Below are positions 5,187 to 63,405 of a stretch of DNA of 64,000 bases, piece after piece; the first letter of the stretch is position 1; each line of letters opens with the position of its first letter. Made by a program: the position numbers and the translations under genes. Source of the stretch: Deferrisoma camini S3R1 (GTDB lineage Bacteria > Desulfobacterota > Deferrisomatia > Deferrisomatales > Deferrisomataceae); assembly GCF_000526155.1 (NCBI RefSeq), contig NZ_JAFN01000001.1, positions 3,164,264 through 3,228,263 of the forward strand. Reading direction: 5' to 3'. The notes beneath the pieces are model-generated. The model was given only the letters and a program-made list of their open reading frames with translations. It did not search any database and was not told where the DNA came from.

Positions 5187-5255
5187 GGGGCCTCTCCGGG
5201 ATCAACGGGGGTCACATGAACCCGGCGACAAGATAGTCGCGTCACCTCGGAGCGC

Positions 5256-5441
5256 GGGGCAAGGGACCTGCCTCCGGCCGGGCGCGAAGCCGGGCATGAG
5301 ATTCGCCGCGCAGGCATGGGACCGAAGAGCTGGTTTCATGACAACTCGGTGGAATCCGAACCATTTCGCGGTCCGAGCGTCAGAGGCGCTGCGCGGCGAG
5401 CTAAGGGGCCGCACCCGGCTCTCCGGCAGGTCCCTTGCCCC
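5256..5441. repeat. structured intergenic repeat, copy A (perfect 17-bp inverted ends)
   Basis: 186-bp element whose left end GGGGCAAGGGACCTGCC (5256-5272) is perfectly complementary to the right end (5425-5441). An inner stem pairs 5278-5286 with 5410-5418. The interior shares long stretches with copies at 16305-16490 and 40327-40512 and less with 24609-24794. It fills most of the 347-bp spacer between the pentapeptide gene and the atp terminator. No ORF of substance is inside. Confidence 0.75.
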
Positions 5442-5486
5442 TCCGAGCAGGGAGCGATAGCGCCTGTTTATCCGCCGGGCTAATGA

Positions 5487-11508: not shown

Positions 11509-11757
11509 CTACACGACGAAGATCAGGAGCAGCGCGACGACCAGGGCGTAGATGCCGGTGGACTCGGACACGGCCTGGCCCACCAGCATGGTGCGGGTCA
11601 GGAGGTTGGCGTGCTCCGGGGCCCGGGCGATGCCCTCGCAGGCCTTGCCGGCAGCGAACCCCTCGCCGATGCCGGGGCCGATGGCGCCGAACCCCATGGC
11701 GATGCCGGCGCCGAGGAGGGCTGCGGCTCGGACCAGGTCTGCTCCGGTGATGTCCAT
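11509..11757 (-). CDS. atpE: ATP synthase F0 subunit c (single hairpin)
   Basis: 82-residue proteolipid: two membrane helices joined by a polar loop ([12 protein letters not shown]). The ion-binding carboxylate is E65 in [12 protein letters not shown]32, V63, S66, T67 and Y70 also match the ligand set described for sodium-binding c subunits (Q/E32-V63-E65-S66-T67-Y70), so sodium coupling is possible; that is inference from residues only. AAAGGAG precedes the ATG. It lies 32 bp downstream of a second, fused c-type gene, so the ring may be built from two kinds of subunit. Confidence 0.93.
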
Positions 11758-11789
11758 GGGACGACTCCTTTCCTGGGTGAGGGTCCAGA

Positions 11790-12500
11790 TCATACGACGT
11801 ACAGGAGCACGAGGGCCACCACGAGCCCGTACACGCTGGTGGACTGGCTGACGGCCTGGCCCACCAGCATGGTACGCAGGATCAACGGCGCCCGGTCGGG
11901 CCGGCGGGCCGTGCCGTCGCAGGCGGCCGCGCCGGCGAACCCGGCTCCGATGCCCGGCCCGGTGGCCGAGACCCCGGCCGCGATGGCGGCGCCCAGGAGG
12001 GCCGCCGCCCCGGACAGGGTGAACTCCGGGGGCTGGGACCGGAACATGAGCAGGAACGCCACGAGCAGGGCGAAGATCGACGGGGTCTGGGCCACGGCCT
12101 GGGACACGAGCATGGTGGTGGTGATCCGGGCCGCCCGGGCGGGGTTGCGGCCGACCGCGGTGCAGGCTGCGGCCGAGGGCAGGCCCGAGCCGTACCCGGG
12201 GCCGAACGCGCCGGCGCCCATGCACAGGCCGGCGGAGAAAAGGGCCACGCCCCGGAGCAGGGGCCCGGAGTCCGGGCCGAACAGGAGGAGCAGGGCCACC
12301 ACCAGGGCGAAGATGCTGGCCGACTCGGCCACGGCCTGGCCCACCAGCATGGTGCGCAGGATCGTGGGGGCGGCCTGGGGTTGGCGGGCGATGGCCTCGG
12401 CGGCCCGGCCGGCGGTGAGGCCTTCGCCCAGGGCGGAGCCGACCGCGCCGAGCCCGATGCACAGGGCAGCGCCCGCGAAAGCGGCGAGGGAGAGGTCCAT
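11790..12500 (-). CDS. triple-hairpin ATP synthase c-type proteolipid
   Basis: 236 residues formed by three in-frame c-subunit hairpins (about residues 1-75, 80-155 and 160-236), hence six membrane helices. Each repeat keeps the GxGxG helix, the polar loop with Arg, and the MLVxQAV helix. Only repeat 1 keeps the ion-binding carboxylate (E59). The equivalent residues of repeats 2 and 3 are Q138 and Q219, checked codon by codon. The helix-1 acidic residue (E26) is likewise replaced, by S105 and A186. Multi-hairpin c subunits are known from archaeal A-type and eukaryal V-type enzymes and in duplicated form from Acetobacterium. It is 9 bp after atpB and 32 bp before atpE. Confidence 0.9.
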
Positions 12501-16119: not shown

Positions 16120-16589
16120 CCCATGCGGAGAGTCTCGGTCCGAGCTTTGGCGCGGTTCGAGAGCCGCCTAGCGGACCGAAGGCCCCCGACCGACGACCGT
16201 TGACCGTAGACCGACGACCGAAGTTACTGGGAACCCCTTCGGCCGCTGCGCGACCCTACAACGGAGAAGGGTGACGTGCGTTGGTCCGGGCCATTGCCGG
16301 CGGCGGGCATGGGGCCTGCTTCCGGCCGCGCGCGAAGCCGGACATTGAGATTCGCCGCGCAGGCAAGGGGCACCGGCGGTGGCCCCATGACCGTTCGACG
16401 GGACCCGAACGAACTCACGGTGCGAGCGTTGGAGGCGCTGCGCGGCGAGCCAAGGAGCCGCGCGCGGCTCTCCAGCAGCCCCCTTGCCCCCGACCGTGAT
16501 AGTGATAACAAAGAGGCGTGCTGGCACTTAGAACGCTGGGAAACCATAGGGGTTTTTTAAGCCTCCTGGCATCCCAGCCTCCTAGCGTC
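16120..16589. repeat. mosaic repeat with structured copy B (16305-16490)
   Basis: Non-coding stretch between parS site 1 and rsmG. In order it holds the GCGCGGTTCGAGAGCCG and GACCGAC tandem flank (16144-16225) and the ACAACGG...CGTTGG linker (16258-16288). Copy B follows, with ends GGGCATGGGGCCTGC and its imperfect complement. The CCTAGC units near 16570 run into the 3' end of rsmG. The interior of copy B is closely similar to copies A and D. Confidence 0.7.
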
Positions 16590-17225
16590 CTAGCGGGCCG
16601 AAGGCCCCAGACCACCCCGGTACACGAGCAGCGATCGGGGACCCAGGCCGGGCAGGCGGGGGAGGTCCCGGCGGGCCACCAGGACCCAGCCGGGCGGCTG
16701 GATCGCCGGCTCGCCGGCGCGGGGCAGCACCACCGCGCCGCCCGGGGCGAGGAACGGGGCGGCCAGAAGAAGGGCGGCCTCGATGTCGGCCACGGCGCGG
16801 GCCGTTACGGTGCGGAAGGCCGCTGCGAGCTCCGGGTGCGGCTCGAGGATCTCGGGGGCCCGACCCTGGAACACGGTGACGTTCGGCAGGCGGAGGACGC
16901 GGGCGGCGTGGCGGGCGAAGGCGACCCGCTTCGATCGGGGTTCGAGCCCGGTGCAGGCGAGTTGGGGGTGCACCAGGGAAACCGGCAGCAGGGGAAGACC
17001 GGGGCCGGTGCCGATGTCGAGAAAGGGGCCTTCCGGCGGCTCTGGGAGAAACGGGAGCAGGGCGTCCGCGATCTGCAACCGGACCCCCTCGAGGGTTCGG
17101 GGGCCCACGAGCCGGATGCGCCGGTTCCAGCGGTGGAGCTCGGCCGCTAGGGCCTCGAGCTTCTCCCACGGGAGGTCGGGGCGGACCGCCCGAAGGGGGG
17201 CCCAGGGGTCAGGGGCCGCCGGCAT
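16590..17225 (-). CDS. rsmG: 16S rRNA (guanine-N7) methyltransferase RsmG
   Basis: 211-residue GidB-family SAM-dependent methyltransferase acting on G527 of 16S rRNA. The SAM motif is FLDIGTGPGLPLLP, followed by LEPRSKRVAFARH. It lies 3 bp after mnmG, the usual pair. The last residues (GLGPSAR) and the stop codon are encoded by the dispersed flank repeat GGGCCGAAGGCCC...CTAG, so the original C-terminus may have been replaced or extended when the repeat arrived. Confidence 0.93.
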   Translation of the reverse strand: MPAAPDPWAPLRAVRPDLPWEKLEALAAELHRWNRRIRLVGPRTLEGVRLQIADALLPFLPEPPEGPFLDIGTGPGLPLLPVSLVHPQLACTGLEPRSKRVAFARHAARVLRLPNVTVFQGRAPEILEPHPELAAAFRTVTARAVADIEAALLLAAPFLAPGGAVVLPRAGEPAIQPPGWVLVARRDLPRLPGLGPRSLLVYRGGLGPSAR

Positions 17226-19230: not shown

Positions 19231-19515
19231 CGGGGCCGGGCAACGGGGAAGGGTGACTTTCGTTGGTCCGGGGTTTTCTCGCCGGAGGCATGGGGCCTAC
19301 GGTTCAGGAGTCAGAAGACGGAATTCAGAGGACAGGTTCCAGCGTCGGATGCAGGAGCACACCTGTGGTTTTTCCTGCCTCCGGTCCGCTGAATTCTGGT
19401 CCCTGAAACCATGCCCCGAGCTCTGGCGCGGTTCGAGAGCCGTCCGGCCGCCTAGCTGCCTAGCCGTCCAGCGGGCCGAAGGCCCCCGACCGACGACCAA
19501 CGACCGAAGTTACAG
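19231..19515. repeat. mosaic repeat with structured copy G (19284-19419)
   Basis: Fills the mnmE-mnmG gap. It has the linker with CAACG...CGTTG, then a core bounded by GGCATGGGGCC and its near complement. Inside the core GAATTCAGAGGAC (19321-19333) faces GTCCGCTGAATTC. The flank of CCTAGC units, GGGCCGAAGGCCC and GACCGAC 7-mers runs to 19515. It is the inverted near-twin of the copy inside the atp operon. Confidence 0.72.
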
Positions 19516-19528
19516 GAAGGAGCCGCCG

Positions 19529-20896
19529 CTACTTCCCGATGCAGAACCGGGAGAAGATCCGGTCCAGCACATCCTCGGGTGCGCCCCAGCCCAGGAGCTC
19601 GGCCAGGTGCCGGCGGGCCCCGTGCACCTCGCTGGCGGCCACCTCGGGGAACTCCCCCCGTCCCAACAGCTCGGCCGCCCGGCGCACGCACGCGAGGGCC
19701 TGGGCGACCAGGGTGCGGTGGCGCTCCCGGGTCAGCGGAGCCTCCCCGGACGGACCCCCGCCCCGGAGGGCCAGCCGACCCAGCTCCTCCACGAGCCGGG
19801 GGATCCCCTCCCCGGTGCGCGCCGACACCAAAAGGGTCTGGACCCCGTGGTCCTTGCGGATCCTCTCGGCCGGGCCCGGGCCCCGGTCGGCCTTGTTGAC
19901 CACGGCCAGAAAGCCGGGCCGAGGGGACAGGCGGTCCAGCTCCCGGGCCTCCTCGGGCAGCAGGGGCCGGCCGGCCTCGCACACGAACACCACGGCGTCG
20001 GCCTCGTCCAGCACCCGGCGCGCCCGGCGGACGCCCTCCTCCTCCACCGGGTCGGCGGCCTGGCGGAGCCCGGCCGTGTCCACGAGCCGCACCGGAACGC
20101 CCGCGGCCTGGGTCCACCCCTCCACCAGGTCCCGGGTGGTCCCGGGCACCTCGGTCACGATGGCGCGGTCCTCTCCCACCAGGCGGTTGAGCAGGCTCGA
20201 CTTGCCCACGTTGGGCAGGCCCACCAGGGCCACGGTGAACCCCTCACGGGCCGTGCGCCCCCAGGCGAAGGTGGAGAGCTTTCTCTCTATTTCTTCTTCG
20301 ATATCGGATAGTTGGGATGAGATCGCCCCCCACTCGGGGGTGCCCACGTCCTCCTCCTCCGGAAAGTCCAGATGGGCCTCCAGCAGGGCCAGGGCCCGGG
20401 CGAGCCGGTCCTGCCAGCCCCCCACCTCTTGGGACAGAGCCCCGGCCAGGATCCGCTCGTGGGTGCGCAGGGCCTCGGTGGTGCGGGCCTGGATCACGTC
20501 GAGGACCGCCTCGGCCTGGACGAGGTCGATGCGGCCGTTGAGGAAGGCTCGGAGGGTGAACTCCCCGGGCCGGGCCAGCCGGGCCCCGGCCGCGAGGCAC
20601 GCCTCCAGCACCGCCCGGGCCGCGGCCAGGCCGCCGTGGCAGTGGATCTCGAGAACGTCCTCCCGGGTGTAGGACCGGGGCCCGGGCATCCACAGGGCCA
20701 GCACCTCGTCGACGGGCCCGCCCCGGGCGTCGAGGGCCACGGCCAAGGTGGCGGAACGGGGGGCCAACGCATCCAGCGGCTCCCCGCTCTTCCTGCGGAG
20801 CACGGCCCGGGCCACCGAGCCGGCGGCCGGCCCGCTCACGCGGACGATGGCCACCCCGCCGACCCCGGGAGGAGTGGCCAAGGCGGCGATGGTCAT
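19529..20896 (-). CDS. mnmE: tRNA modification GTPase MnmE (TrmE)
   Basis: 455 residues. The N-terminal folate-binding domain starts with TIAALATPPGVGGVAIVRVSG. The GTPase domain has GLPNVGKS (226-233), DTAGLR and NKAD. The last residues CIGK carry the catalytic C-terminal cysteine. Forms the wobble-uridine modification complex with MnmG. It starts 4 bp after yidC ends; the jag gene often found between them is absent. Confidence 0.97.
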   Translation of the reverse strand: MTIAALATPPGVGGVAIVRVSGPAAGSVARAVLRRKSGEPLDALAPRSATLAVALDARGGPVDEVLALWMPGPRSYTREDVLEIHCHGGLAAARAVLEACLAAGARLARPGEFTLRAFLNGRIDLVQAEAVLDVIQARTTEALRTHERILAGALSQEVGGWQDRLARALALLEAHLDFPEEEDVGTPEWGAISSQLSDIEEEIERKLSTFAWGRTAREGFTVALVGLPNVGKSSLLNRLVGEDRAIVTEVPGTTRDLVEGWTQAAGVPVRLVDTAGLRQAADPVEEEGVRRARRVLDEADAVVFVCEAGRPLLPEEARELDRLSPRPGFLAVVNKADRGPGPAERIRKDHGVQTLLVSARTGEGIPRLVEELGRLALRGGGPSGEAPLTRERHRTLVAQALACVRRAAELLGRGEFPEVAASEVHGARRHLAELLGWGAPEDVLDRIFSRFCIGK

Positions 20897-20900
20897 GACG

Positions 20901-24487: not shown

Positions 24488-24900
24488 CGGGCCGAAGGCC
24501 CCCGACCAACGACCAACGACCGAAGTCACCGGGAGGCCTCGTCAGGCCCCTGCGGGGCCGTACAACGGGCAAGGGTAACTTCCGTTGGTCCGGGGCCTTT
24601 ACGCCGGAGGCATGGGGCCTGCTTCCGGCCGTGCGCGAGTGCAGCATCCGATCGCCGCGCCTTCGCATGCCGTTGCCGGAGCAGGCTGTTCGGGCGGCGA
24701 CAGCGGAGGGCCCTGGAATTCGACGAAGCTACAGATGTTCGGGGGGCGCGGCGAGCCAAGGAGCCGCGCCCGGCTCTCCAGCAGACCCCATGCCCCACCG
24801 AGCGTTTGGCGGCGGTTCGGGGAAGCGGCCCGGCCGCCTAGCAGCCCAGCTGCCTAGCGGGCCGAAGGCCCCCGACCAACGACCGCAGGTTCCCCGTTCC
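24488..24900. repeat. mosaic repeat with structured copy C (24609-24794)
   Basis: About 410 bp without a gene between hemW and the hrcA promoter. It starts with GGGCCGAAGGCCC and GACCAAC units, then the linker with CAACGG...CCGTTG (24565-24589). Copy C follows, with ends GGCATGGGGCCTGC and its near-complement. Its interior differs from copies A, B and D in the left-centre and shares that part with 57077-57130. A second flank (24826-24895) closes the spacer. Confidence 0.7.
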
Positions 24901-39488: not shown

Positions 39489-40156
39489 TCTTCTTCCCCT
39501 TGGCCCTGGTGTTCGCCCTGGTGCTGTTCCTCCTGGGCCTGTTCGTGCTGGCCTTGGTCCAGGTGGGGCTGATCGGGGCGGCGTTCGCCAAGCTGGGGCT
39601 CCCGCCCCAGGCCGTGCCCCTGGTGCTCTTGGGCAGCCTGTTGGGCAGCGGGATCAACATCCCGGTGCGGCGGATCCAGGCCCCGGCCCGGCCGGTCCAG
39701 CTGGACCTGCTGGCCCTGGGGTTCCGGTTCCGGTTCCCGGGGCTGCCCCTGCGCCAGGAGACCGTGCTGGCCGTCAACCTGGGCGGGGCCGTGATCCCCA
39801 CCCTGGTGTCCCTGTACCTCCTGGGCCGGGCCGGGTCGCCCTGGGGGTACCTGGCGGCCACGGCCGCCGTGACCTGGGTGGTCCACCGGTTCGCCCGGCC
39901 GGTGCCGGGGTTCGGCATCGCGGTGCCCCTGCTCGTGCCCCCGGCCGCGGCCGCGATCGCGGCCCTCTTGTTCAGCCCGGCCGAGGCCGGCCCGGCGGCC
40001 TACGTGGCCGGCACCCTGGGGTGCCTGCTCGGCGCGGATCTGCTGAACCTCCCCAAGATCGCCCGCCTGGGCGCGCCGGTGGCCTCCATCGGCGGCGCCG
40101 GCACCTTCGACGGGGTGTTCCTCTCGGGCGTGATCGCCGTGTTCCTGGCGGGCTGA
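39485..40156 (+). CDS. DUF1614 multi-spanning membrane protein
   Basis: 223 residues from GTG 39485. About six hydrophobic segments, the first being FFPLALVFALVLFLLGLFVLAL. The pattern LLGSLLGSGINIPV and the end GAPVASIGGAGTFDGVFLSGVIAVFL are typical of DUF1614. Its last 27 codons are duplicated 13.93 kb away at 54006. Function is unknown; members are common next to cytochrome or methanogen-type genes. Confidence 0.85.
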   Translation: MIFFPLALVFALVLFLLGLFVLALVQVGLIGAAFAKLGLPPQAVPLVLLGSLLGSGINIPVRRIQAPARPVQLDLLALGFRFRFPGLPLRQETVLAVNLGGAVIPTLVSLYLLGRAGSPWGYLAATAAVTWVVHRFARPVPGFGIAVPLLVPPAAAAIAALLFSPAEAGPAAYVAGTLGCLLGADLLNLPKIARLGAPVASIGGAGTFDGVFLSGVIAVFLAG

Positions 40157-40180
40157 CGGCCCGGCCGGCTCCTCCCCCCC
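40076..40180 (+). repeat. left copy of a 105-bp direct repeat (putative attachment or duplication site)
   Basis: Matches 54006-54110 at 104 of 105 positions; the single difference (40138 C versus 54068 G) is synonymous in the DUF1614 gene. It covers the last 81 bp of that gene and 24 bp beyond. The two copies bracket the whole catabolic block. Confidence 0.9.
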
Positions 40181-40326
40181 ACGGCTGCCTCTCGGATCGT
40201 GGGGCCTGCTGGAGAGCCGGCCGCCGGCGTTTCAGGGATCAGCAACAGAATCCAGCTTCCATAGGCCGCGAGGCGGCCTGTTTGCGAAGAAATAACTCGA
40301 CCCGACCCCCGCACAGTTTCGGCGGT

Positions 40327-40512
40327 GGGGCATGGGGTCCGCTTCCGGCCGCGCGCGAAGCCGGGCATGAGATTCGCCGCGCAGGCACGGGGCACCAACG
40401 GTGGTTTCATGGCAGTCCGGCCGGGGACCGAACGGTTCACGGTGCGAGCGTTGGAGGCGCTGCGCGGCGAGCCAAGGAGCCGCACGCGGCTCTCCAGCAG
40501 ACCCCATGCCCC
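40327..40512. repeat. structured intergenic repeat, copy D
   Basis: Ends GGGGCATGGGGTCCGC (40327-40342) and its complement at 40497-40512 with one C/A mismatch. The interior is closely similar to copies A and B. It lies in the 760-bp spacer after DUF1614 and is flanked by CCTAGC units near 40585-40615. Confidence 0.75.
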
Positions 40513-40634
40513 CGAGACCGTGAGGCGGCGCCAAAGGGGCTGGGGCGTGCTTGGAACACTCTGGAATCAAGTAGGTTTTCATGCGTCCTAGCCTCCCAGC
40601 CTCCTAGCGGAAGTTACTTGGAAGACAGGACTCT

Positions 40635-53971: not shown

Positions 53972-54005
53972 TCGGGAGAAAGGGCTTTCGCGGAACTCGG
54001 ATGCA

Positions 54006-54110
54006 CCGGTGGCCTCCATCGGCGGCGCCGGCACCTTCGACGGGGTGTTCCTCTCGGGCGTGATCGCGGTGTTCCTGGCGGGCTGACGGCCCGGCCGGCT
54101 CCTCCCCCCC
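54006..54110 (+). pseudogene. orphan 3' end of the DUF1614 gene (right copy of the 105-bp direct repeat)
   Basis: Encodes the last 26 residues of DUF1614 with its stop codon and 24 bp of downstream sequence, without the rest of the gene. It matches 40076-40180 at 104 of 105 bases. It lies 35 bp after the second KAS III-like gene. Confidence 0.9.
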
Positions 54111-58312: not shown

Positions 58313-58443
58313 CGGTTCAGGGCTCCGGTAGTTCCAGCAGGAACCGCCACGCGGGGACCACATCCACCCGACCGGCGTCGGTGCCCACGCGCTCCTCCTG
58401 GGTGCGGGTCACCACCAGACCCCGGGAGATTCCTTGCTCCTTC
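58313..58443 (-). repeat. 131-bp direct repeat, left copy; C-terminal gene fragment on the minus strand
   Basis: About 93 percent identical to 63275-63405. On the minus strand both copies encode the end of one protein (KEQGISRGLVVTRTQEER, then VDVVPAWRFLLELPEP and a stop). The upstream sequences are unrelated, so both are truncated remains. The family is not certain; the end resembles that of some AAA ATPases with DUF4143. Confidence 0.7.
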
Positions 58444-63274: not shown

Positions 63275-63405
63275 CGGTTCAGGACTCCGGCGGTTCCAGC
63301 AGGAACCGCCACGCGGGGATCACATCCACCCGACCGGCGTCGGGGTCCACGCGTTCCTCCTGGGTGCGGGTCACCACCGGACCCCGGGAGATTCCTTGTT
63401 CCTTC
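63275..63405 (-). repeat. 131-bp direct repeat, right copy
   Basis: Counterpart of 58313-58443 with about nine substitutions. On the minus strand it encodes KEQGISRGPVVTRTQEER and VDVIPAWRFLLEPPES with a stop. Upstream coding sequence is again missing. Together the two copies frame 4.8 kb that includes the helicase. Confidence 0.7.

Follow-up and report, generated by a model that had tools for sequence, protein, structure and literature searches.

Composite MITEs with a common structured core in the intergenic regions of Deferrisoma camini

Four repeats found in the intergenic regions of Deferrisoma camini S3R1 (copies A to D) are full-length members of a palindromic family of ~187 bp. We read this family, with good though not complete confidence, as lineage-specific composite MITEs that have a structured core in common, that are probably mobilised in part by IS630-family transposases and whose fold is kept by selection; it is almost certain that the copies are mobile elements. 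In this reading, each element is a long imperfect hairpin made of two layers, the outer layer being one of several transposon ends and the inner layer the shared ~187-bp core. Two kinds of ends appear, from their sequence, to belong to resident IS630-family transposons, which would probably act in trans and duplicate TA, while a third kind makes TNA duplications. Selection would keep the core foldable, its tip evolving fast, and the core has passed between transposon types, most simply via recombination between copies. The hairpin likely affects transcripts, or is processed in them, and copies would therefore survive mainly in the less disruptive orientation, that is, with the plus strand in sense.

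Results

The window, meaning the whole stretch of 64,000 nucleotides that was analysed, comprises positions 3,164,264-3,228,263 of the 4.24-Mb single-contig genome. An alignment of 38 sequences belonging to two genera (alignment A1), with copy A among its rows and copies B, C and D left out, served to build a covariance model for the minus strand. This model produced exactly four full-length matches in the window, whose minus-strand scores ranged from 152 to 182 bits and plus-strand scores from 15 to 36 bits; they were the same four copies that the original prediction had located. In plus-strand coordinates, the structured core of copy A lies at 5256..5441 (182 bits for the match to the minus strand) and that of copy D at 40327..40512. 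The core of copy B (16304..16490) is of a D-like subfamily and departs from standard pairing at three positions of the outer stem. Copy C (24607..24796) represents another subfamily, with the same stems and junctions and a different tip; this divergent interior was absent from the original prediction.

The family extends over the whole genome. DNA searches with copies A and D detected at least 40 close relatives each, and a 22-nt diagnostic module, with up to 3 mismatches allowed, occurred at 186 genome sites compared to 0 for the reversed pattern. The covariance model identified at least 150 full-length copies at E < 1e-17; all 150 scored candidates matched, and the true copy number is probably above 150. 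Copies with their flanks were analysed from ~0.51 Mb of stretches around copies, using gene calls from a codon-based script of our own that requires GC-rich third positions. Flanking sequence was available for 133 copies; their overlap with predicted genes never exceeded 90 nt, and none of them lay inside a gene. Relatives of the element were present in two genomes of the same genus and in one genome of the same family, the latter with other tips. The model gave no match in 147 other genomes of the phylum, when 17 candidates per genome were scored under strict filters, and phage and plasmid collections gave none either. The element did not match Rfam at gathering or at permissive thresholds and hence is not in a described Rfam family.

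Read on the minus strand, the core consists of a 17-bp outer stem (P1) and a 10-bp stem (P2), separated by a short junction that has a near-invariant GGAG on one side and CCGGAA or CCGGAG on the other. Past P2 there are conserved junctions, GGCYCCUUNG on one side and a partly conserved stretch of 14-18 nt on the other, and a near-invariant stem, P4 (CGCCGCGC/GCGCGGCG). Other local pairings within the junctions are also possible. The tip of the core is wholly different between subfamilies. In a copy from the other genus (L277) it is very short, ~20 nt including extra pairs, and a long tip is therefore dispensable. When copy A was folded, the plus strand gave a slightly better energy than the minus strand (-113.3 vs -109.6 kcal/mol), with both z-scores below -5.9. 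A resemblance to HDV-like ribozymes, based on the motif CUAAGG, was dropped, since the order of the helices does not fit.

Alignment of the copies together with their flanks revealed larger inverted-repeat units that enclose the conserved core centrally. With ends, the unit of ~187-bp core measures about 270-290 bp, too short for a transposase gene. At least three types of outer ends (T1, T4/T5 and T2) were found on the core, T3 being a further type, and left and right ends matched in 43 copies for T1, 29 for T2, 37 for T3 and 9 for T4, same-genus genomes included. The unit around copy A spans 5217..5483 and has T1-type inverted ends (TGAACCCGGCGAC.../...CCGCCGGGCTAA), so that the inverted ends of the original prediction hold as conserved borders of the core and not as those of the mobile unit. 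The ends of this unit match an IS630-family element (G000:C1:4028589-4029695), and its TA target duplication is degraded (CA/TG), as are target duplications in many older copies. T3-type outer ends surround copy C (24574..24893; GGTAACTTCCGTTGGTCCGGGG ... CCCCGACCAACGACCG), and the left outer end of copy B (16270..16291) is also of T3 type. Copy D with its outer flanks occupies 40268..40621, with a T6-type left flank and a right flank ending near GGAAGTTACTTGG, these borders being approximate and set by eye. Mixed end pairs (T1-T3 in 6 copies, T2-T1 in 4 and T4-T1 in 2, with T3 and T6 combining freely) point to copies having recombined with one another.

T1 units are flanked by TA on both sides, that is, by a TA target duplication, and T1 ends are the ends of a 1.1-kb, TA-flanked IS630-family element (group a; NCBIfam IS630, E 3.5e-73), which in one case has itself entered a core, exactly at TA. 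The T4/T5 ends are similar to the ends of another IS630 group (b), present in three copies with TA flanks, and BLASTP revealed no useful similarity between the transposases of the two groups. T2 units carry a TNA duplication in which the variable central base is identical at both ends in 14 of the 16 scored copies. For T2 (TACCAAGTTGC) and T3 ends (GGTAACTT) we found no transposase, one IS5-type Pfam family having been tested. An IS4 transposase located between T2 ends was considered as the T2 partner and rejected, as it is inserted in the core with a ~10-bp duplication; this IS4-family element (L252:438-1637) has the ends CAATACTGTTCACTT and the duplicated ~10 bp are GACTTACGCC.

Units with other contents also exist. 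Short T2 units without the core were detected, and in the window a coreless relative (19252..19514) combines T3 outer ends and remnants of the outer stem with a hairpin, GGTTCAGGAGTCAG...CTGAAACC, that replaces the core interior. This second hairpin family (TTCAGGAACCAGGAATCAG.../...CTGAATTCTGGTCCCTGAA) takes the place of the core interior within the same outer ends at G000:C1:4047855-4048077 and at L270 as well. Low-complexity tails (CCTAGCATCCCAGCCTCCTAGC / GACCAACGACCGACGACC) adjoin the elements at 16559-16614, at 24823-24878 and in many spacers, and are possibly remnants of nested insertions.

Comparison with same-genus genomes uncovered differences in the presence of the element at several loci, which show recent movement. 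The cleanest case is a 264-bp E-type insertion at TA; in the window, the intergenic site 20855..20900 lacks an element at the place where a same-genus genome (L143) has one of A type. The family presents several features by which MITEs are recognised: short multicopy units, ends matching a resident transposon, target duplication and insertion polymorphism. Of the two natures contemplated by the original prediction, a hairpin-transposed element was right in substance, the element being composite and MITE-like: its ends are inverted, its target sites are duplicated and the genome houses IS630 partners.

We then analysed the base pairs of the core. The compensatory changes originally proposed from single comparisons could be seen by eye, outer pair 7 passing from A-T to T-A and outer pair 11 from A-T to G-C between copies A and D, and an inner-stem pair from G-C to C-G between A and B. 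A C/A mismatch, which would be G-U on the minus strand, is retained in D, and the non-standard pairs of copy B had likewise been noted correctly. In 38 diverse copies, standard pairs accounted for 95% of the pair cells. Both sides changed in 22 out of 37 pairs, compared to 12.5 +/- 1.6 after shuffling (38 sequences of two genera), and 0 of 500 shuffles reached the observed level. The covariation score was 0.310, against 0.126 in the shuffled alignments and 0.03-0.08 when the partner was slid by 1-3 columns.

Because the shuffle control ignores relatedness, two tree-aware tests were added. When events were redistributed on the tree, Watson-Crick pairing in P1 was retained in 89.4% of cases versus 63.5 +/- 5.0% in the null (200 runs, maximum 76.2%; z = 5.1), and 24 double changes fell on the same branch, where the null gave 9.4 on average and 17 at most. 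The coupled changes were thereby borne out for the outer stem. P2 and P4 deviated in the same direction, not clearly beyond the null (z of 1.9 and 1.5), and each shows little variation on its own. In the second test, an R-scape-like APC analysis whose nulls were derived from the tree, no pair reached significance, since the split into A and D subfamilies makes strong background covariation everywhere; the significant covariation that the original prediction expected of R-scape was thus not reached in our approximation, where the two subfamilies dominate the signal. Pairing in P1 is firmly established as being under selection or mechanically maintained. For P2 and P4 it is mainly the between-genus alignment that points to one or the other.

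Changes in place were followed at orthologous sites. At 31 such sites, core identity was 94.7% and that of the flanking 700 nt was 94.8%, with the core above the adjacent 60 nt; whole cores were not more conserved than their flanks (19 of 31 higher, p = 0.37). Within the core, divergence in 24 orthologous pairs was 0.8% in P4, 1.3% in P2, 1.7% in the junctions, 2.5% in P1 and 3.3% in the tip, and stems plus junctions diverged less than the tip (p = 0.0008). These 24 pairs were chosen as the most similar ones, which lowers the absolute rates and should not alone create the order. The slower change of the inner helices and junctions relative to the tip suggests constraint, and gene conversion could contribute to the pattern. 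The fold is likely selected.

The original prediction had also contemplated a folded RNA read from the minus strand, since several imperfect pairs would be G-U there. Reconstruction on the tree agreed with it in one respect, as Watson-Crick pairs were restored 52 times from plus-strand A/C and once from G/T, in ~7 columns, and the minus strand formed the more stable P1 duplex in 181 copies, the plus strand in 24. Whole-core folding energy, in contrast, did not distinguish the strands (130 vs 122 copies), and unpaired and tip columns showed a general 1.5-fold excess of G-to-A changes. Recent private changes to A/C or G/T stood at 35:11 where the plus strand of the copy has the same sense as the two genes beside it and at 12:13 in copies antisense to both (Fisher p = 0.02 in one uncorrected test), and at 18:5 and 13:7 in copies between convergent and divergent genes, respectively. 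With ~7 columns involved, equal whole-core energies, a general G-to-A excess and unbiased antisense copies, the evidence on the strand is mixed. Orientation itself was uneven: of the copies between same-strand neighbours, 68 had the plus strand in sense and 26 had it in antisense (p = 2e-5), and the plus strand followed the leading strand in 93 versus 40, a tendency inseparable from gene direction at these numbers. In the window, copies A and B are antisense to both neighbours, and C and D are sense. A functional RNA transcribed from the core is no more than plausible. That the folded form matters as RNA, with the minus strand favoured, and not only as DNA, is an idea to which we give slightly less than even credence.

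Discussion

The pairing of the arms could have a purely mechanical origin. Were these ordinary MITEs, DNA repair, through quasi-palindrome correction or gene conversion between copies, might copy one arm onto the other with no selection on the fold. Most coupled changes are indeed in the outer stem, cores recombine, as the mixed end pairs indicate, and at some orthologous sites core identity drops to 78-86%, as gene conversion would give. However, arm copying is symmetric with respect to the strands, yet compensations started almost always from A/C, and it explains neither the junctions kept across two genera nor inner stems and junctions that change more slowly than the tip. We regard it as rather unlikely. 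The A/C excess on the plus strand might instead reflect selection weakening a hairpin that disturbs sense transcripts or the lagging-strand template, with no minus-strand product involved. The contrast between sense and antisense copies, a single uncorrected comparison, speaks in its favour, but the bias was also found between convergent and between divergent genes, and pairing has been kept nevertheless; this, too, is a somewhat doubtful account of the data.

A different proposal is that the minus strand of the core would give a functional small RNA, acting in trans or processed, whose gene the transposon ends merely spread. The G-U intermediates of that strand, the internal-loop sequences conserved in two genera and the slower change in place are all consistent with it, as is the preference of the covariance model for the minus strand, which is partly by construction since the model was built on it. 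Against it, the minus strand tends to be antisense to both neighbours, so that read-through would not make the RNA, Rfam has no match, and the A/C bias is absent from recent changes in antisense copies; we consider a small RNA gene of this kind unlikely. As for REP/REPIN-type palindromes moved by a tyrosine transposase (RAYT), the genome does encode Y1-family transposases and the elements are palindromic and intergenic. The longer Y1-family genes that were examined, however, had no core in the surrounding 3.0-6.0 kb, and units of 187-290 bp with TA or TNA duplications are unlike short REPs, which measure 20-40 bp. This origin is disfavoured to the point of being very improbable.

We therefore retain composite MITEs with a selected core as the best reading. 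A stronger version of it would see in the core a selfish structured module, acting as minus-strand RNA, adopted by at least three unrelated end types in one lineage and selected in place, that is, a mobile RNA-like cargo that changes vehicle; we deem this version improbable.

The closest kinds of elements in the literature are RUP and Correia elements (PMC2229807, PMC3049150, PMC10969869). RUP from Streptococcus pneumoniae and other IS630-type MITEs are also short, palindromic and non-coding, with TA flanks and ends of resident IS630-family elements, and are mostly intergenic (for RUP, PMC2229807, PMC3049150). RUP, however, is a simple 107-bp element, whereas here a structured core of 187 bp sits on the ends of two IS630 groups and of at least two further types. 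Correia/NEMIS elements of Neisseria are intergenic MITEs that occur in large numbers and end in TA; they have size variants that differ in their internal parts, their transcripts fold, and RNase III is the proposed processing enzyme of NEMIS RNA (PMC2229807). Compared by description, the present element differs in its GC-rich core, its several end types and its documented coupled changes. BOX, ERIC and BIME are likewise repeats of modular or structured build whose effects on transcripts depend on orientation (PMC3049150), but they consist of other modules, and the element described here lacks a RAYT link. TIMEs, the Tn3-derived miniature elements, are MITEs that resemble it in that stretches of their core are conserved, RNA folds are predicted for them and their copies recombine (PMC4133298). 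They differ in their Tn3 ends, their 5-6-bp duplications and their usually single-copy state. Chunjie, a MITE of Geobacter uraniireducens, is similar by its description in a review, being intergenic and 178-235 bp long in a host historically placed in Deltaproteobacteria (PMC10969869).

In a short search of the open-access literature we found no description of one core common to MITEs with unrelated ends in bacteria. Bacterial MITEs are usually viewed as decayed transposons and are defined by their ends. Here, the folded interior is constant and the ends change. More than 150 copies per genome, together with polymorphic sites in sister genomes, provide a natural experiment on whether the folding of a MITE is selected, and whether at the level of RNA or of DNA. 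It follows that core and end should be classified separately in the short repeats of this group.

Other repeats and transposase genes

Among the Y1-family transposases of the genome, a 166-aa IS200-like protein is encoded in four copies with the same score (G000:C1:718733, 738564, 789121 and 1513274), and longer Y1 proteins are encoded near 215 kb, 484 kb and 1.93 Mb. The window contains further repeats. Four ATP-synthase c-subunit-like units lie in tandem at 11509-12500, one as a single ORF (11509-11757) and the rest in a 236-aa ORF (11790-12500), apparently a fusion of three units (repeats D2/D3). A direct repeat of 108 nt, 98% identical, links the 3' end of the gene before copy D (40073-40180) with positions 54003-54110, 13.9 kb apart, and another of 131 nt, 93% identical, is found at 58313-58443 and 63275-63405, 5 kb apart.
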